Assembly: GCA_905182025.1 (NCBI GenBank) | Contig: CAJJAA010000027.1 | Span: forward strand, 50,302-114,301 | Direction of reading: 5' to 3' | DNA from: an uncultured OM182 clade bacterium | Lineage (GTDB): Bacteria > Pseudomonadota > Gammaproteobacteria > Pseudomonadales > Azotimanducaceae | Length of the DNA: 64,000 nt | Shown here: one piece after another, positions 22,794 through 61,996 of the stretch | How the letters are laid out: each line of letters opens with the position of its first letter | Position numbering within the stretch: the first letter of the stretch is position 1 | The notes under the pieces: model-generated | What the model saw: only the letters and a program-made list of their open reading frames with translations | What the model was told of the DNA's origin: nothing | Database searches by the model: none | Position numbers and translations under genes: made by a program

Positions 22794-25700
22794 ATGGAGC
22801 AAGAAAAGGCTTCCGTTGATCAATTGTATCTTGCCGCAGAAACGCTCGCGCAGGATTTTTCACTGTTTCCGAGAAAAGAGACTGCAGCGGTCATTAAGGG
22901 TCTGCTGACCGAGCAGCAAATCGAGATTGAAGTTGAGCGACTGCGTGGAATGGATGTTGATGCCTATATCGCAGCGGCAGTCAGTCCAGCCGAGGAAGGT
23001 ACGAGGGCAGGTGCAAAGGAGATTATTCAGGCGCTGGACGTTCCGATCTTAAGTGAAATGCAGGATGGTCCATTTTACACTGCAGTCGTTGAAATGAACT
23101 TCAATGGTATCAAGCGTCAAGTTGGCTTAATCGCGCAGGATCGAGCATTTGCCTCAGGTGTTTGGGGCCCAGAGCATCACACCCATGCTGCAGATGCCGC
23201 CGGTGATTATGCGATTCGATCCTTGCCCATTATCTGTTTTATGGATACACCGGGCGCTGATGGTAACGAACTTGCTAACGCGAACAATCAGGCGCATTCA
23301 ATTTCACAGCTTATTGCAGAACTATGTAATGTTGATGTGCCAACGATTGGTATTGTTGCAGGTCAAGGCTATTCCGGTGGTGCGATACCATTAGCCGCAG
23401 GCAATTTGTTGCTTTCTCTTCGAACCGGCGTGTTCAACACGATTCATCCTAAGGGCCTCGCTAACTTGGTGCGTCGATATAATTTGTCTTGGCAAGAGTG
23501 TGCCCAATCGGTGGGTGTGTCGTCTTATGAGCTTTATAAGCAGGGTAATATTGACGGCATTATAGACTACGACCCTGGCGAGACTAACAATATCGCTAAT
23601 CTGCGGAACGCAATGGTGTCGGGTATATTGTCGATTGAAGAAAGTACGCGAGAATTTGTTAGTGATCATCCTGAAATACTTGATCACTATCAGCGCAATA
23701 TTAATCGCTATTTGCACCCCTCTGAATCTCTGTCAGCGGTTCACGCTAGCTCGAACCTGAAGTTGCGAACTTCCCCTACGCAATACCCGAATGTATTTGG
23801 TGTTGCCTATCGATATCTACGTTACTTAGGCCTAAGACGTCGAATCAAAAGTATAAACTTAAGTCAGTATGGTCGCTTAGCATCTGTTGAGCTGCCGGAA
23901 GGCGAGTTGTTTCAGCGCGTTCGTCGTGAACGTCGAACGGCCTTTCTCGATTGGTTACTCGACCCCGATAAAATTCTCTATGAGGATACACTGAACAAAG
24001 CGTGGAAGAACTACGTTGATAAGAAAGCCGTGGTCGGCGACGAGCGTGGTCGGTTTGCTCAGTTAATATTTGGTGAGCCAACAAAGAACTATGAGAATGC
24101 TAAACGTGATCTTTGTTTGCAATGCGGGTTACATCTTTATAACCGTTGGAAGGCAAGCTCAACAGCGAACCTAGAGGCGTTGATAGAACATATCGGCGAC
24201 CAGGATGCGAATGCCTATCTATTGAAAGTTTCTGATATTCGCGACGTCAAGGCGCTACTGCGCACTATGGTGTCGACAGATCTTGCGTTTGTTGTGAAGC
24301 TAAAGTCTCAATTCACCCACGAAGGCAAGAAACTTTTCGGCAAGGATTATATCAACGAAAAAGCGGAGGATTTTCTCGCCACTCAGCTAGCCTCGGAATT
24401 GAATCTTATAATCGAAGAAACGAGTCTCTACGACACGAGTGTCCTGTCCGACGAGACACTTTCTGATTATGCTCAACAACTTATTGCGCAGGGCGGTTAC
24501 GAAGAAAAGCCGTTGAAGCTCAATCGACGCTTACTCGAAGACACAATGTGGTCATACATCAGTCGAAAGACGGATGTCGAACAAGCAAAAACAGACCAGA
24601 ATCGAACTATTTTGGACGTTGTACTTGATGAAGATATTCGAGAGGATTTCGTTCAGGAATGTCAGAATTTAATCGTCTTCAGTCATGTTTACGACAATCT
24701 AATCGGCCAGTTGGCTGTCGTTGCTAAGCAGGCGCAGGACTCTCGAACACTATCTAAAGAGTTCATTGAAGAACTTGTGAATAAAGCTATCGGTGATATG
24801 AATGCAGATGAAGGCTTTAAAGACATTGGCGAAGAGGAAATTAAACGTCGATTTTCTGCATGGATTACTGGGCTGTCTAGTCACGCGGTCAGTGCGACAT
24901 TCTTAAAGTCTGTTGAAGAATGGATTCGTGTTGTTCACAAGGATAAATCCGACACGCTGTTTGTTGTCGTGAGTTTTTTCTTCGAGAAACTATTGCCCGA
25001 ATACTATGCGTCCCAGTCGGGCACGAAGCGCTACGAAGGAAAAGTTGAGCCCGTCAGGATTGGTCGTCGTAAAGATTTTTGGAATCGCCTCACCATTGCC
25101 TATCGAGATCAACTGTTCCATGAGATTTTGACGAAAGAAAAGCGTAGCGGTCGGACGACTTTTGAAACCCTGTTAGATAAGTATGTGTCTAACTTCCAAG
25201 AGTTGAATGGCGATCTAATGTCATCTAACCCCGTCGCTTTTCCGACATTCAGGCCGTCTATTGAATCCGCATTGAAGAACGGCGTGAGACCACACGGCCT
25301 TGTTACAGGTATTGGTGACTTTGATACGGGTACTGGCTGCTATAAGGTCGGTCTCGTTATGCCAAATGTTGCGTTCCAGGCTGGTAGTATCGACAGCTCT
25401 GACTGCGTTCGGTTTTGCAAGCTGCTGGTTGAATGTGCGATACAAAGACTTCCCGTTGTATGTTTTATTTCTTCCGGCGGTATGCAAACCAAAGAAGGCG
25501 CGGCAGCACTCTTTACGATGGCGGTTGTGAATGATCGGATTACTCGATTCGTTCGAGACAATGATCTGCCGATCATTATGTTTGGCTATGGTGACTGTAC
25601 CGGCGGTGCACAGGCAAGTTTTGTGACACACCCATTGGCACAAACTTATTATTTTACGGGTACGAAAATGCCTTTTGCTGGTCAAACGGTGATCGAGTCG

Positions 25701-27704
25701 AACCTACCATTTACCTGCTTAATGAGTAACTACCTTTCGGTCAAAGCCGGTGCGATGGCTGGCATGGTTAAACATCCGTTCTCCGAGGATCTAGATAACC
25801 AGTTGCAGAGTGTTGACCCAGCCTTACCTATGCCGACGGAAACGATTGAGCAGGTTGTCGAACGCATCATGTCTGGCTCATTGTCGCCGTCAGAGCCTGT
25901 CGTTAAAAACATCACGATGTCTGAAGCTGAACTTATTCGCCCGATAAAACGCACGCTAATTCATGCACGCGGTTGTACCGCGGTGAAGTTAGTTTCTAAA
26001 GCCAAAGAATTTGGCTACGAAGTTGTATTGGTTCAGTCAGATCCTGATATGGATTCTGTTCCTGCTGATATGGTTCGAGATGACCCCAAACACGCGCTTG
26101 TTTGTATAGGTGGTAATACTTCTGATGAGAGTTATTTGAATGCACTGAGTGTATTAAGTATCGCTGAAGCGCAGCAGGTCGACTCATTGCACCCGGGTAT
26201 TGGTTTTCTTTCTGAAGACCCGAATTTTGCCAAGATTGTTCGTCAGCGGAATTTAAATTTTATTGGTCCTAAAGTTGTCAGCATGGAAACAATGGGTAAT
26301 AAATCTAATGCGATTAGTACGACCATGAGCATTAATGTGCCGGTAGTTCCTGGTAGTCACGGTATTGTCGATACGCCCGAGCAGGCTGCGGAGATTTCGG
26401 AAAAAGTTGTTTACCCTGTGCTATTAAAAGCTGTCCACGGCGGCGGCGGTAAGGGTATTCAGGTCGTCAACAAACCCGAAGAAATTCACTCGTTGTTCCA
26501 CCGAGTCCGTGCCGAAGCCAAAGGTGCTTTCGGAAACGGTGATGTTTACATCGAAAAATTTGTTACCTCTCTGCGTCACATCGAGGCACAGATTCTTAGG
26601 GATACACATGGTAATTGTAAGGTGCTGGGTATTCGAGACTGTAGTGTGCAGCGGAATAACCAAAAGCTGATGGAAGAGTCAGGCTCAACAATGCTGCCTG
26701 AAGAGCTGAAACAGATGGTTTATGAATATGCCTATAAGATCGCCGATACGGTTGATTATATTGGTGCTGGAACTGTCGAGTTTATCTATGACGTGCCGAG
26801 TAATGCTATTTACTTTATGGAAATGAATACGCGCTTGCAGGTTGAGCATCCGGTAACGGAAGTTGTGACAGGCATCGATATAGTTCAAAAACAATTTGAA
26901 ATAGCGTCAGGTGCATCAATAGCCGATTTGGAGCCAAGCGAGACGGGTTATGGCTTGGAAGTTCGAGTTAATGCTGAGAAAACGGTGCTCGATTCAGAGG
27001 GCAATGTTTCCTTCACGCCAACGCCAGGTGAAATCACTGTCTGTGAATTGCCAGAGCAAGAGGGCTTCCAGCTGATCTCAATGGCAGGCGAAGGAAAGTT
27101 TGTTTCGCCCTTCTATGACAGTTTGATTATTCAAATCATTTGCCATGGAACCGACCGAAAAGATGCGACTGAAAAAATGTTTGCGTATCTTGAACGGGTC
27201 AAGATTCACGGTATTTGCACAAACATCAGTTTGATCAAACGTATCTTGAAAGATGATGAGTTCCAAAATGGCATTTATGACACCAGCTACCTTCCCAAGT
27301 TTTTAAGTCGCATCGACGTTAATGCGCTGATCGAGGAGGTTGAAGAAGCTTCTGGTATGGCCGGTGGTGCACTTGATATCGAAATGCTGAAGATTGAGGG
27401 CAGTGATGAGCTAAAGGTTCTTTCACCTTCAACAGGTGTTTTCTATCGGACCCCTTCACCTTCAGAGCCTGATTACGTGAATGTCGGCGATGTCATTTCT
27501 ACTGAAGATGTTATGTGTCAGCTAGAGGCGATGAAAATGTTTACGCCGATGAACTTGAGTACATTTTCGAGTTTAGATGGCGAGCTTTATCCGTCAGCTC
27601 AACAGTACAAGGTGACACGCATCAATCAGACCGGCGGCCAGCAGGTCAACGAGGGCGACCTGCTCTTTGTGATCAAGCCAATGCTGACTGCGACGTCAGC
27701 CTAG
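22794..27704 (+). CDS. Single-chain acyl-CoA carboxylase: CT-alpha-like, unassigned region, CT-beta-like, biotin carboxylase, biotinyl domain
   Basis: CT-alpha: DTPGADGNELANANNQAHSISQLI / GQGYSGGAIPLAAGN; CT-beta: ISSGGMQTKEGAAALF / GDCTGGAQASF; BC: LLKAVHGGGGKGIQVV / FMEMNTRLQVEHPVTEVVTGID; biotinyl LEAMKMF (Lys codon 27534). Confidence 0.9.
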   Translation: MEQEKASVDQLYLAAETLAQDFSLFPRKETAAVIKGLLTEQQIEIEVERLRGMDVDAYIAAAVSPAEEGTRAGAKEIIQALDVPILSEMQDGPFYTAVVEMNFNGIKRQVGLIAQDRAFASGVWGPEHHTHAADAAGDYAIRSLPIICFMDTPGADGNELANANNQAHSISQLIAELCNVDVPTIGIVAGQGYSGGAIPLAAGNLLLSLRTGVFNTIHPKGLANLVRRYNLSWQECAQSVGVSSYELYKQGNIDGIIDYDPGETNNIANLRNAMVSGILSIEESTREFVSDHPEILDHYQRNINRYLHPSESLSAVHASSNLKLRTSPTQYPNVFGVAYRYLRYLGLRRRIKSINLSQYGRLASVELPEGELFQRVRRERRTAFLDWLLDPDKILYEDTLNKAWKNYVDKKAVVGDERGRFAQLIFGEPTKNYENAKRDLCLQCGLHLYNRWKASSTANLEALIEHIGDQDANAYLLKVSDIRDVKALLRTMVSTDLAFVVKLKSQFTHEGKKLFGKDYINEKAEDFLATQLASELNLIIEETSLYDTSVLSDETLSDYAQQLIAQGGYEEKPLKLNRRLLEDTMWSYISRKTDVEQAKTDQNRTILDVVLDEDIREDFVQECQNLIVFSHVYDNLIGQLAVVAKQAQDSRTLSKEFIEELVNKAIGDMNADEGFKDIGEEEIKRRFSAWITGLSSHAVSATFLKSVEEWIRVVHKDKSDTLFVVVSFFFEKLLPEYYASQSGTKRYEGKVEPVRIGRRKDFWNRLTIAYRDQLFHEILTKEKRSGRTTFETLLDKYVSNFQELNGDLMSSNPVAFPTFRPSIESALKNGVRPHGLVTGIGDFDTGTGCYKVGLVMPNVAFQAGSIDSSDCVRFCKLLVECAIQRLPVVCFISSGGMQTKEGAAALFTMAVVNDRITRFVRDNDLPIIMFGYGDCTGGAQASFVTHPLAQTYYFTGTKMPFAGQTVIESNLPFTCLMSNYLSVKAGAMAGMVKHPFSEDLDNQLQSVDPALPMPTETIEQVVERIMSGSLSPSEPVVKNITMSEAELIRPIKRTLIHARGCTAVKLVSKAKEFGYEVVLVQSDPDMDSVPADMVRDDPKHALVCIGGNTSDESYLNALSVLSIAEAQQVDSLHPGIGFLSEDPNFAKIVRQRNLNFIGPKVVSMETMGNKSNAISTTMSINVPVVPGSHGIVDTPEQAAEISEKVVYPVLLKAVHGGGGKGIQVVNKPEEIHSLFHRVRAEAKGAFGNGDVYIEKFVTSLRHIEAQILRDTHGNCKVLGIRDCSVQRNNQKLMEESGSTMLPEELKQMVYEYAYKIADTVDYIGAGTVEFIYDVPSNAIYFMEMNTRLQVEHPVTEVVTGIDIVQKQFEIASGASIADLEPSETGYGLEVRVNAEKTVLDSEGNVSFTPTPGEITVCELPEQEGFQLISMAGEGKFVSPFYDSLIIQIICHGTDRKDATEKMFAYLERVKIHGICTNISLIKRILKDDEFQNGIYDTSYLPKFLSRIDVNALIEEVEEASGMAGGALDIEMLKIEGSDELKVLSPSTGVFYRTPSPSEPDYVNVGDVISTEDVMCQLEAMKMFTPMNLSTFSSLDGELYPSAQQYKVTRINQTGGQQVNEGDLLFVIKPMLTATSA

Positions 27705-29686: not shown

Positions 29687-31099
29687 CTAATAAGAGTAGG
29701 TGTTGCCGTCATTATTGGTCAGAGTAAGTCTGTTGATATCCGATGATTCGGTATGACCGATCCGCTTTGCATCGATTCCATAACTCTCGGCAATTGAAAT
29801 CAAATTATCGACTTGATCTTCGGGGACATAAAGCTCCATGCGGTGGCCCATATTATAAACCTTATACATTTCCTCCCAGCGGGTGCCGGATGCTTTTTGA
29901 ATCGCATCGAACAAAGGTGGCGTGGGAAATAAGTTATCTTTCACAAAATGCACATTGCGGCCAAACTTGACGCACTTTGTTTGCGCCCCACCTGAACAAT
30001 GAATGATGCCTTTTATATCCGAGCCAATTTCTTTCAATGCGGTTTGAATGACAGGTGCATAAGTGCGGGTTGGGCTCAGAATTGCTTCACCAACAGAGAG
30101 TGCCGAATTCGGCAGGGCATCTTCAAGTTTGTAAGGGCCACAATAAACGAGTTCCTTCGAGACATTGGGGTCGAAAGACTCTGGATAGTTTTCGGCATAG
30201 TAGTGGCTCAGCATATCGTGTCTTGCACTGGTTAGACCATTGCTGCCAATACCGCTGTTAGCATTGGATTCATAGGACGCTTGACCCGTTGACGAAAGCC
30301 CGACGATTGCCAGATTTGATGTGATTTCGTTCCGCACGACATCATCTTTCTTCATGATGGCGACAGCGCATGAGTCAACGACAACCGTACCCGTCAGATC
30401 GCCAACGTCTGCCGTTTCTCCGCCGCCAGAATAGATATTAATACCTAGGTCTCGTAGTTGTGCCATGAAGGACTCACTTCCTTCAATAAGTGCTGAGACA
30501 ACCTCACCCGGGCAATTAAGCGCGTTGCGATTAATGGTGTTTGAAATGAGTATGCGACCATTAATGCCGACGCACAGGAGATCATCCAGGTTCATAACAA
30601 TACTGTCTTGAGCAATGCCATGAAAAACTGAAGCATCACCCGTCTCTTTGTATTTCAAATAGGCGATGATAGATTTCGTGCCGCTGCCGTCCGCATGGAT
30701 GATGTTGCACTTCTCTGGATCACCGCCGAGGTAATCTTCCGTTATTTTGCAAAATGCACCAGGAATGCTGCCGGCGTCCAGACGATCGACCACGTTATGC
30801 ACTTCTGACTTGTCAGAACTAACTCCTCGAGCTTGATACCGACTGTTCGGAGAGCGATCTGAGGCGATGGCGACGGTGAATCCAGATCGATCCTTTGCTT
30901 CGATGACGCCGCGAAACTCGAGTTGCCTTAGCGCTTTTGCGACCGTATTGGCCGCAAGCCCGTTATCTTTGGCGAGATTGCGAATACTGGGCAGCTTTTC
31001 TGCCGGGGCTAATTCGCCCGTGTTAATTGAAAAATGGAGCTGGTCGATAATTTGCTGGAAAACAGGAATGGGTGACGTGTTATCGATAGCGAGTTTCAT
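29687..31099 (-). CDS. GntR-type winged-helix domain fused to PurM-like AIR synthetase domain
   Basis: N-terminus [76 protein letters not shown] (GntR wHTH); then [24 protein letters not shown]...[16 protein letters not shown]...[10 protein letters not shown]...[13 protein letters not shown]...[13 protein letters not shown]...[12 protein letters not shown] (PurM). Start at 31099 chosen over ORF-track 31276. Confidence 0.88.
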
Positions 31100-31129
31100 A
31101 ATGTCCGGTGGCCTGATGAATAGACTAAT

Positions 31130-31149
31130 TGTATTAATCTGATAATACA
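31130..31149. promoter_or_regulatory. Perfect inverted repeat TGTATTA-N6-TAATACA, candidate operator for the GntR-PurM protein
   Basis: TGTATTA ATCTGA TAATACA, 30 nt upstream of the ATG at 31099 (minus strand). Confidence 0.6.
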
Positions 31150-31390
31150 GATAAGCGGGGCACATGAACAGACCTAGCCGCCTCGAGTTTGCTTTCGAAC
31201 GCCTTTGTTGGCCGTCCTGTTTGTCTGACATCAAGCCACGTGGGCAATTTACTAGAAGGCGAGGTAGATACAGCAAATTATCTGAGCTGAATCGCGAATT
31301 ATTACGTGCGATCTTCTATAATGCCGCCTTTCAAATATCCGGCAATGCTTGGATACATTTAGGTTTTGGTTATATTGAGGTGTGCTTTGC

Positions 31391-32017
31391 ATGCGTGTTG
31401 CGATAGTTGATTATGATGCAGGCAATCTGCGAAGCGTTCAGCGAGCCTGCCAAGCGGTAGGGCTGGATGGATTCATTACGGCCTCGCCTGAGGAAGTGTT
31501 AGCGGCGGATAAAATCATCTTCCCCGGTGTTGGCTCTTCAGTAAGCGCAGTCGATACCCTGCACGATCGTGGTTTGTTTGATGTGTTGATCGAAGCTTTT
31601 CATAAAGGAACACCGCTGCTTGGCATCTGTTTGGGTAGCCAGATTGTGCTTGAACATACAGAAGAAGGTGACAAGGATTGTTTGGGTCTTATCGACGGTG
31701 TGGTTGAGCGTTTCGACTTTGCCGATCGCACCTATAAAGTGCCACATATCGGTTGGAACGAAATCAACATTGCTCAGCCTCATCCCTTACTGCGACAGGT
31801 CGAAGATGGTGATGAATTTTATTTTGTTCACTCCTATTTTACTCGTCCGACTCAGCAAGCCAATGTCGTTGCCACGACAGACTACAACATTAATTTCTGT
31901 TCGATTCTGGCAAAGGACAATTTGTTTGCGACTCAATTTCACCTCGAGAAAAGCGGTAGGAAAGGATTGAGCATACTTGCTGAATTTGCGTCATGGGAAG
32001 GAGGTTCAACATGCTGA
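31391..32017 (+). CDS. hisH: Imidazole glycerol phosphate synthase, glutaminase subunit HisH
   Basis: [58 protein letters not shown]. Confidence 0.92.
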
Positions 32018-32790
32018 GTAAACGTATTATTGCCTGTTTGGATGTCAGGAACGGCATGTTGGCGAAGAGTGTTAAGTTTGTTGATACGAAAGACATCGGT
32101 GACCCAGTAGAGAAAGCGCAAGAGTACTATGAAGATGGCTTAGATGAGTTGGTCTTTTATGACATCACCGCCTCCAGTGATGATCGCAACATCATGCTTG
32201 ATGTTGTTGAAGAGGTGGCGAAAAAAGTTTATATCCCATTTTCAGTGGGCGGTGGTGTTCGATCAGTTGAGGACGCGTCAAAACTATTATGGGCCGGTGC
32301 CGAGAAGATCAACGTCAATTCGGCTGCGGTAAAGCGGCCTGAACTAATTGCTGAGTGTGCCCACGCAATAGGTAATCAAAACGTCGTTCTGTCGATGGAT
32401 ATCCTGCGCCGAGAAGAGTGTCGTGAGTTTCCTAGCGGATATGAAGTCGTTATCAATGGTGGTCGCACCCCGATGGGTGTCGATGCTCTGGCCTGGGCCC
32501 TGCAAGGTGAATCATTAGGCGCAGGTGAACTCGTTGTTAACTCGATTGACGCAGACGGAACACGAGAGGGTTATGAAATTAAGCTGACGAGAATGATAGC
32601 TGAAGCGGTATCCATTCCTGTCATTGCTTCCGGCGGTGCAGGAAAGCCGGAACATTTGTATGAAGTCCTAACGGAGGGTAAAGCGGATGCTGCGCTCGTT
32701 GCCTCGATGGTGCACTATGGTGAGTATACCGTCAGTCAACTTAAGCAGTGGCTGCACGACAAGGGTGTAAAGGTTAGGCTGAAGTACTAG
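32011..32790 (+). CDS. hisF: Imidazole glycerol phosphate synthase, cyclase subunit HisF
   Basis: [60 protein letters not shown]. Confidence 0.92.
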
Positions 32791-59392: not shown

Positions 59393-60575
59393 ATGAGCAC
59401 ACAAGCCTTTATCAGGTCTAAAAGTATTGGATCTCACGCACGTGCTGGCGGGTCCTTATTGCACTTACCAACTCGCCCTGCTGGGTGCTGAAGTCATTAA
59501 AGTTGAGTCACCCAGAGGCGATATGACTCGCCCGTGGGGTGGCGATGAAGAACAAATTGCGATGGGCTTGGGCACAGGTTTTGTGGCTCAAAATGCGGGC
59601 AAGCGCAGTGTCGTGATTGATATCACGACTGAGCGAGGTGCATTGTTAGTCAGTGAACTAGCTAAACAGGCTGATATCTTTGTAGAGAATTATCGGCCTG
59701 GCACCATGCAGGATCATGGTCTTGATTATGATTCTCTTGCGGCAGATAACCCTGAGTTAATTTACCTGTCAATTTCGGCCTTTGGCCAAAATGGTCCAAT
59801 GGGACATCGTCCGGGTTTCGATGATGTGATTCAGGCGACGTCTGGCTTTATGTCGATTAATGAGCGCGGCGATGGTCCGATAAGAACCGGTGGTCCTGTG
59901 CTTGATTACGCAACGGGCATGCATTCGACATCCGCTGTGCTCGCGGCTGTTTTACTTCGCCAGCAAACGGGCCAAGGGCAACGCATCGATATTGCGATGC
60001 AGGATGTCACCATGCTGCTGATGAATCGCCACACCAGTATTGCCGCGACAACGGGTGTCGCTGTGCCTCCCGGTGCTAATCGTGATGGGCCGATGTTGGG
60101 GCGTTATCGGGCCAAAGACGGCTACGTCATGCTGGCCGGTTATAGGGCAAGTCATCAGCGCGGCATTCTTAAAGCGATTGGTTTGATGGAGTTTGCGTCG
60201 TTCAGTACGGCGCAATTAATGGCTCAAATGCCACAGATTGAAGCAAAAGTAGAAGAAGTCCTTCAGCAAAAAACTGTCGCCCAATGGGACGTTATATTTA
60301 GTGATAGCGGCGTTGTTGCCGGCGGCGTGAAAGACTTGGTTGAAGTATTCGAAACAGGTCAGCCCGAAGCGAGAGGGCTCACAACCAAAGTAGAAAGTGC
60401 CTACGGCGAACATCAGGTCACGTCAGCGGGATATCGAATCAACGATGTGACGTTCGAGCCGGGTACGCATGTGCCCGTATTGGGTGAGCACACCAATGAA
60501 GTGTTAACCGCGCTAGGTTATTCAGAGAGTGACATAGCAAGTTTGGTGGATCAGCAAGTTATTGCGACCAAGTAG
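59393..60575 (+). CDS. CaiB/BaiF-type CoA-transferase with apparent 5' frameshift (open frame 59427..60575)
   Basis: LDLTHVLAGPYCTYQLALLGAEVIKVESPRGDMTRPWG; ATG at 59393 with GGAG RBS would read MSTQALSGLKVLDLTHVL if one T in the TTT at 59408-59410 is removed. Confidence 0.85.
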
Positions 60576-61996
60576 TGGAGATTCTAGGACTCTCGGGCAC
60601 CGCCATTGCAAAGCGCATAAAAAATGGCGAAGTTAGTGCGGTCGATGTGATGGAGCAGGCGCTGAATCAGGCCGATAAAGTTCAGGCGCATCTCAATCCC
60701 TTCGTTACCATTACCCGCGAGGCCGCCCTCGCACAAGCGAAGCAGGCAGATGAGCTGCTTAAAAGAACGCGGCCCGAAACATTGCCAGCATTTTTTGGTG
60801 TGCCTTTTACCGTTAAAGATCTATTGGATACGCAGGGCGTGCAGACGACCTATGGGTCACGTTCGCTCGAACACAACATCCCTGACAGTGATGTCGTCGC
60901 GGTAGCAAGAATGCGAGCTGCAGGTGCAATTTTGCTCGGCAAGACAACAACGCCTGAGTTCGCCAGCAAAGTCACCACTGACGCTGTGCTCACCGGCATC
61001 ACGAGAAACCCTTGGGCACCCTCATTGTCCTGCGGCGGTAGCAGCGGAGGCGACGGCGTTGCTGTTGCGACCGGCACTGTTCCCTTTGGGGTGAGTACTG
61101 ATGGTGGCGGCTCGTCCCGCATTCCAGCATCGGCCTGTGGCGTGTTGGGCATGAAGGTGACCATCGGCGCGATACCGCACGAAAGTTGGCCGTTTCATTT
61201 TGGTAACAACAGTTCCATTTCTATGAACTGTCGACACCCGGAAGACCTTGTGACGCTATTCAATACCATGTCCGGTGCACATCACCTTGATCCTTGGTCG
61301 CGCCGAGAGATTAAGACAATGAGCCCGCTTGTTGATCCTGCGCGAGCAGTGCAAGGTAAACGGGCGCTCTTCATCCCAGCATTGGGAGGGAATATCGCCG
61401 ATGCGCAATACCAAGCGATAGTCGAAAAAGGCTTAGCGAAGCTTGGCGATTTGGGTTTGGATATTGATGTCGCATTGGATGACCCGACGGAATTTCAGCC
61501 AGGTATTGCGACTCAAATGATGACCAGCAATCTTGCTGCCAGGGTTCGGCAAATGCCAGTTGAAGCACAACAGCTTCTGGGACCTGTTCTGCAAAGTTTA
61601 CTGGAAGAAGAAACGTTCAAATCCGACGGTGTCCGATTGCAATCAGATGCCATCGATCGATCACGCACCTACGACCGTTTGGAGCGGGTATTAAGTCAGT
61701 ATGATTTTGTACTCACGCCCACATTAACGGCGCCGCCACCCCTTGCTGATCCCAACGGCGATCAACGTGTCACGATCAACGGCAACAAAGAGCGTGTTAA
61801 CAAATGGTGGACGCACCTTTGCATTGCTAATTTAACCGGGCATCCGGCGATATCTATTCCCTGCGGTATAGATACCAATGACTTGCCCGTTGGATTGCAC
61901 GCAATTGGTGGTTGGGATCGAGACAGCGATCTAGTGTCATTAGCCTTTGCAAGTATTGCATGTTTTGACTGGACCGAAAGACGACCAGTTTATTAA
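60575..61996 (+). CDS. Amidase signature family protein (GTG start)
   Basis: GVPFTVKDLLDTQGVQTTYGSR, LSCGGSSGGDGVAVATGTVPFGVSTDGGGSSRIPASACG. Confidence 0.95.
   Translation: MEILGLSGTAIAKRIKNGEVSAVDVMEQALNQADKVQAHLNPFVTITREAALAQAKQADELLKRTRPETLPAFFGVPFTVKDLLDTQGVQTTYGSRSLEHNIPDSDVVAVARMRAAGAILLGKTTTPEFASKVTTDAVLTGITRNPWAPSLSCGGSSGGDGVAVATGTVPFGVSTDGGGSSRIPASACGVLGMKVTIGAIPHESWPFHFGNNSSISMNCRHPEDLVTLFNTMSGAHHLDPWSRREIKTMSPLVDPARAVQGKRALFIPALGGNIADAQYQAIVEKGLAKLGDLGLDIDVALDDPTEFQPGIATQMMTSNLAARVRQMPVEAQQLLGPVLQSLLEEETFKSDGVRLQSDAIDRSRTYDRLERVLSQYDFVLTPTLTAPPPLADPNGDQRVTINGNKERVNKWWTHLCIANLTGHPAISIPCGIDTNDLPVGLHAIGGWDRDSDLVSLAFASIACFDWTERRPVY

Follow-up and report, generated by a model that had tools for sequence, protein, structure and literature searches.

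A GntR-type winged helix joined to a Bacteroidetes-type AIR synthetase (PurM): a candidate enzyme that regulates its own gene

Control of purine synthesis is usually described in terms of separate repressors or riboswitches. PutA and BirA each carry a DNA-binding domain in the same chain as the enzyme. Both repress transcription of genes in the pathway in which they act as enzymes, the proline dehydrogenase PutA acting on the put operon and the biotin ligase BirA on the bio operon (PMC6978683). Within the GntR family, YtrA-Sa acts as a repressor of its own operon, using a site that covers the transcription start (PMC6746942). We analysed a window of 64,000 nucleotides (the whole stretch of DNA considered here) from an uncultured OM182 clade bacterium, in which one gene encodes a GntR winged helix followed by PurM (AIR synthetase). 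The proposed likeness of this fusion to PutA and BirA is that a metabolic enzyme acts as a repressor in its own pathway; it differs from them in its GntR helix-turn-helix (HTH), in belonging to de novo purine synthesis and in having apparently a single target, its own gene. With YtrA-type and MocR regulators it shares the N-terminal GntR winged helix and a palindromic operator, which is putative here, whereas its effector part is a PurM enzyme and not FCD, UTRA, YtrA helices or an aminotransferase fold. The putative operator, 22 bp long, is a simple inverted repeat, in contrast to the direct or mixed repeats often found for MocR proteins (PMC5320631). No description of a GntR-PurM protein was found in the open-licence literature.

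The gene starts with ATG and continues for 470 codons in a single unbroken frame (Table 1). A sequence-only reading had placed an N-terminal GntR HTH in front of a complete PurM-like domain, and the domain search agreed on both counts. The GntR model PF00392 matched residues 15-76 with an E value of 3.4e-13 (49.5 bits, cut-off 27), and AIRS and AIRS_C matched residues 128-247 (2.1e-7) and 333-458 (1.5e-8), both over the gathering cut-off. According to Pfam, AIRS and AIRS_C alone make up the part C-terminal to the HTH, with none of the FCD, UTRA, YtrA or aminotransferase domains, in line with the earlier proposal of an effector outside the standard GntR types. If the fusion is a regulator, AIRS/AIRS_C would be a new type of GntR effector, and the family would gain an effector domain. 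Residues 85-466 aligned with nearly the whole chain of PDB 3MDO, a putative PurM of Parabacteroides (E=7e-142), thus spanning the full enzyme length, and the match to PDB 3KIZ had an E value of 3e-132. The three PurM motifs quoted in the sequence-only reading were all present and were invariant or nearly so among the homologues. The fusion scored 94 bits on the NCBIfam purM model TIGR00878, below the equivalog cut-off of 236.35, because it is a member of a divergent, Bacteroidetes-type clade. The assignment to the Bacteroidetes type, not the E. coli type, was borne out by the 3MDO match. Identity to 3MDO and 3KIZ was 52-55% across the enzyme domain in the fold comparison, with the same motifs, but those PurMs have no DNA-binding domain. 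With canonical PurM (TIGR00878, E. coli) the fusion shares the fold, the DGxGTK, GGETA, SNG and PTR motifs and the genome slot; it differs in falling under the family cut-off, in extra inserts, in the change of His190 to Gly and in the N-terminal HTH.

An AlphaFold2 model of the fusion, built with 44 homologues, had a mean pLDDT of 85.7 and contained two ordered domains. At the joint between them (residues 80-85) pLDDT fell below 50, and the linker length was not constant among homologues. The HTH was modelled with helices at residues 13-26, 39-45 and 50-62 and wing strands at 66-69/73-76. The top Foldseek matches of the model were 3MDO and 3KIZ (TM 0.95-0.97 by target, 0.96 for 3MDO), followed by AIR synthetases from many organisms.

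Table 1. Features of the fusion locus, in window coordinates
Feature	Position	Strand	Remarks
GntR-PurM fusion gene	29687..31099	-	470 aa + stop
GntR-type winged HTH domain, residues 1-78	30866..31099	-	Pfam PF00392 match 15-76 = 30872-31057
Short variable linker, residues about 77-86	30842..30871	-	Low pLDDT; length differs among homologues
Complete Bacteroidetes-type PurM (AIR synthetase) domain, residues 87-470	29690..30841	-	3MDO match, Foldseek, kept active-site residues
Putative operator CTGTATTATCAGATTAATACAA, read on the - strand	31129..31150	-	29 bp upstream of ATG; family consensus CTGTATYA-N6-TRATACAG
Candidate -10 element TATTAT (inferred) in the left operator half	31142..31147	-	Position pattern across loci
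hisH, divergent neighbour	31391..32017	+	TIGR01855, 1.2e-60; synteny only, not thought a target
hisF, divergent neighbour	31996..32790	+	TIGR00735, 1.3e-101; synteny only

Species-representative genomes were scanned with one HTH peptide as the query and the best 80 loci were retained, which together with the window gave 81 homologous loci; these counts are not an estimate of frequency. An N-terminal extension was present in 65 of the 81, in the same order and at the same start position, and was absent from 16. Homologues beginning after the HTH, which would have spoken against the fusion, occurred only in clades that also lack the operator (see below). The fusion architecture recurred in about 60 species-level genomes from independent assemblies. 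The fused loci were mostly from Gammaproteobacteria (Pseudomonadales-related metagenome-assembled genomes [MAGs]), with 5 Myxococcota, 1 Planctomycetota and 1 Acidobacteria-labelled record. Among close pairs of functional fusions where it was measurable, dN/dS of the HTH was 0.02-0.13, and the enzyme part gave similar values. Purifying selection on the HTH is strong, and the domain is maintained. Since the same architecture recurs in independent assemblies and the HTH is constrained, an assembly artefact joining two frames was ruled out, as was an HTH decaying by drift.

A palindrome, CTGTATYA-N6-TRATACAG, was found at 13 or more of its 16 specified positions upstream of 62 of the 65 fused genes, 0-82 bp from the start codon, and upstream of none of the 16 unfused homologues. 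Its arms were almost invariant across phyla, while the N6 spacer varied freely. Elsewhere in the same loci no copy at 14/16 or better occurred in 1,257,155 flank positions. When the left half-site was read in the coding direction, it contained TATNAT, a 5/6 match to the -10 hexamer TATAAT, in 29 of 43 thinned loci. The last T of TATNAT was kept in 34 of the 43, and the matching base at the mirror position in 15, as expected if a -10 element were overlaid on the palindrome. An excess of -35-like sequence 17-18 bp upstream of the hexamer was weak, and a strict sigma-70 scan of the window found no promoter. No Rfam match to an RNA element was found upstream of the fusion gene.

We consider it likely that the protein is a bifunctional autogenous regulator, being both AIR synthetase and transcription factor of its own gene, which would repress purM in a manner that is likely ligand gated. 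GntR proteins need a dimer. The active form of PurM is a homodimer (PMC5919458), which would supply it. In the proposed mechanism, the fusion would catalyze FGAM + ATP -> AIR + ADP + Pi, and the enzyme-domain homodimer, as in other PurMs, would hold two N-terminal winged helices. The paired HTHs would bind the inverted repeat directly, as we infer from the sequence comparisons, and the operator would lie on the likely -10/start region, such that binding would exclude RNA polymerase and repress purM. Occupancy of the enzyme domain by FGAM and/or ATP would probably free the operator. Gating by these ligands is the natural hypothesis because the domain fused to the HTH is the one that binds them, and their choice is guessed from the chemistry of the enzyme. 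An idle enzyme would thereby turn its own synthesis off, and substrate build-up would turn it on. It is very probable that, in this bacterium and its relatives, the fusion enzyme exerts direct control over its own production; an apparently essential pathway enzyme here seems to signal its load to the promoter of its own gene.

The position of the operator bears on the sign of this control. An HTH that stimulates purM from the same operator when FGAM is high would be compatible with the variable distance to ATG, from 0 to 82 bp, and with the activation reported for some MocR-type GntR regulators (PMC5320631). Such an activator is nevertheless unlikely, since the operator lies over the -10-like hexamer and abuts the start codon in Myxococcota, an arrangement that suits a steric block. 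Steric repression is therefore favoured over activation, and it is from the position of the site that repression is predicted.

The sequence-only reading had left it open whether the PurM part was an enzyme or a ligand-binding remnant, and the genome content narrowed this toward the enzyme. The second, canonical purM-purN that it had proposed to look for was not found: no other PurM was detected in the genome, which is 87% complete, and purN and purL were both present. It is unlikely, judging from the relatives, that a canonical purM was simply missed. In a fixed set of 118 relatives, Bacteroidetes-type PurM was present in 23 (21 fused and 2 unfused) and canonical PurM, defined by a score over the TIGR00878 cut-off, in 90, with zero overlap between the two groups. 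Canonical PurM was also absent from 47 of the 50 fusion genomes that were reached via their loci. Three genomes, G348 (locus L056), G350 (L058) and G351 (L059), contained both the fusion and a canonical PurM. All three are MAGs, two of them Myxococcota, and MAG contamination or a transitional state is possible. As the only PurM found, and mutually exclusive with canonical PurM, the fusion occupies the slot of a working enzyme. We compared it with the residues that PMC3261824 and PMC5919458 assign to the active site of E. coli PurM. Asp65, Asp94 and His247 were kept, as were the DGxGTK and GGETA motifs; Thr249 was replaced by Ser and His190 by Gly, and Arg259 had no aligned partner. The unfused members of the clade showed the same deviations, which are therefore traits of the clade and not decay after fusion.

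The most likely conclusion from these comparisons is that the fusion protein is the AIR synthetase of this bacterium, not a remnant; AIR synthesis by this PurM clade is deduced from family, genome content and exclusivity. The PurM part could instead be an FGAM/ATP sensor that is no longer an enzyme, comparable to the aminotransferase fold found in most MocR regulators, with AIR made by another enzyme. The score far under the canonical purM cut-off and the unmatched His190 and Arg259 would fit such a sensor. Against it are the lack of another PurM in the bacterium's own genome and in 47/50 fusion genomes, the strict mutual exclusion with canonical PurM, the retention of purL and purN, and the kept D65, D94, H247 and DGxGTK/GGETA together with the like deviations of unfused members, and we regard it as very unlikely. 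A working AIR synthetase with a fused HTH would be a trigger enzyme; the catalysis and DNA binding that this description calls for are predicted here from the sequence, from the genome slot that the gene fills and from its covariation with the operator.

The earlier idea that this protein may directly control transcription gained a putative target, its own promoter, and the site was found almost nowhere else. In the bacterium's own genome, no site other than 31129-31150 came within one mismatch of the consensus, and a looser core had its single exact match there as well. The 50 fusion genomes (about 185 Mb) contained 27 exact copies, every one of them at the promoter of the fusion gene, and the same was true of all 7 in the 118 relatives. 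Extra one-mismatch sites numbered 11 in the 50 fusion genomes versus 11 in 95-97 non-fusion genomes; of five that were inspected, four were inside ORFs and none was recognised beside a purine gene. A regulon beyond the gene itself was sought and none was found, the one-mismatch sites being about as common in non-fusion genomes and mostly intragenic where inspected. The candidate operator therefore appears to be essentially unique in each genome, with the purM promoter as its predicted single target. With a single protein and a single DNA site in each genome, the system would be a minimal natural feedback circuit that could be moved into a laboratory strain.

No purine gene neighbourhood surrounded the fusion loci, the neighbours being hisHF, a LysR regulator, a carboxylase and others. 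The hisH gene was next to the fusion gene in many loci but not all. This frequent divergent neighbour, and the production of the purine intermediate AICAR by HisF (PMC5919458), would suit a wider purine regulator that also controls hisHF or other pur genes. We hold this reading to be highly unlikely, since no exact second operator was found in any fusion genome searched, the inspected one-mismatch sites were mostly (4/5) within ORFs with none recognised beside a purine gene, and the site remains with purM even where, in other phyla, the neighbours differ.

The presence of the operator followed that of the HTH. In a tree of PurM sequences rooted on 3MDO/3KIZ, a Pseudomonadales clade (loci L065, L067-L071, L074 and L079) without HTH and without operator was nested among fused sequences. 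Unfused Verrucomicrobiota, also without the operator, sat among fused Myxococcota and the Planctomycetote. Two OM182 clade relatives in which the HTH has decayed (L063 and L066, described below) had no operator either, and serve with these unfused groups as natural controls. A single fused clade was rejected (AU p=0.011), which implies more than one loss, or gain, of the HTH, with the operator accompanying it. Seven unfused loci had the same hisH neighbourhood as the fused loci. The case for the fused HTH as the predicted reader of the operator is made most strongly by this covariation, and natural lineages that lack both make the link testable. The least probable reading is that the operator is owned instead by a GntR protein standing alone, or by some other regulator, which acts in trans while the fused HTH is otherwise employed or structural. 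Binding by the fused HTH is itself a prediction, and the genome holds another weak GntR match; yet from one lineage to the next the operator comes and goes with an intact fused HTH, and a trans regulator of such a single-target site would have to vanish each time with that HTH.

The tree also bears on the lateral origin suggested earlier for the PurM part. The strict alternation of PurM types within one family points to xenologous replacement, so that a patchy replacement of canonical PurM is supported. The Bacteroidetes PurM were a distant outgroup. The nearest non-gammaproteobacterial relatives were Myxococcota, Verrucomicrobiota and a Planctomycetote. On balance, we lean toward viewing the fusion as a new GntR class, and as a de novo purine enzyme that is the first to be described with an operator-binding domain of its own. 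It would form a closed single-gene feedback loop in which the catalytic occupancy of AIR synthetase sets transcription of its gene, conserved in several phyla and never lost without the operator.

Several loci showed further variation. In the Planctomycetote (L060, 5937-5958), an altered yet perfect palindrome, CTGTACCC-N6-GGGTACAG, was present at the same place, and it is possible that operator and HTH changed together. Two OM182 clade loci had an 80-residue N-terminal extension (L063, 10001-10240; L066, 2915-3154) with no GntR match, intact AIRS domains and no operator. The extension was mildly constrained (dN/dS 0.15) and may have taken another role. At 22794-27704 (+) of the window, a 1636-aa chain contains carboxyltransferase domains followed by biotin carboxylase and a biotin-carrier domain; by these predicted domains it is a one-chain acyl-CoA carboxylase of the order CT-BC-BCCP, and relatives of it were near the purM gene in 39 loci. 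At locus L156, 4313-5919 (G000 contig C13, about 60312-61918), a ribose-phosphate pyrophosphokinase-like gene comes after purN with hardly any gap, a purN-prs pair in place of the purM-purN pair of E. coli.
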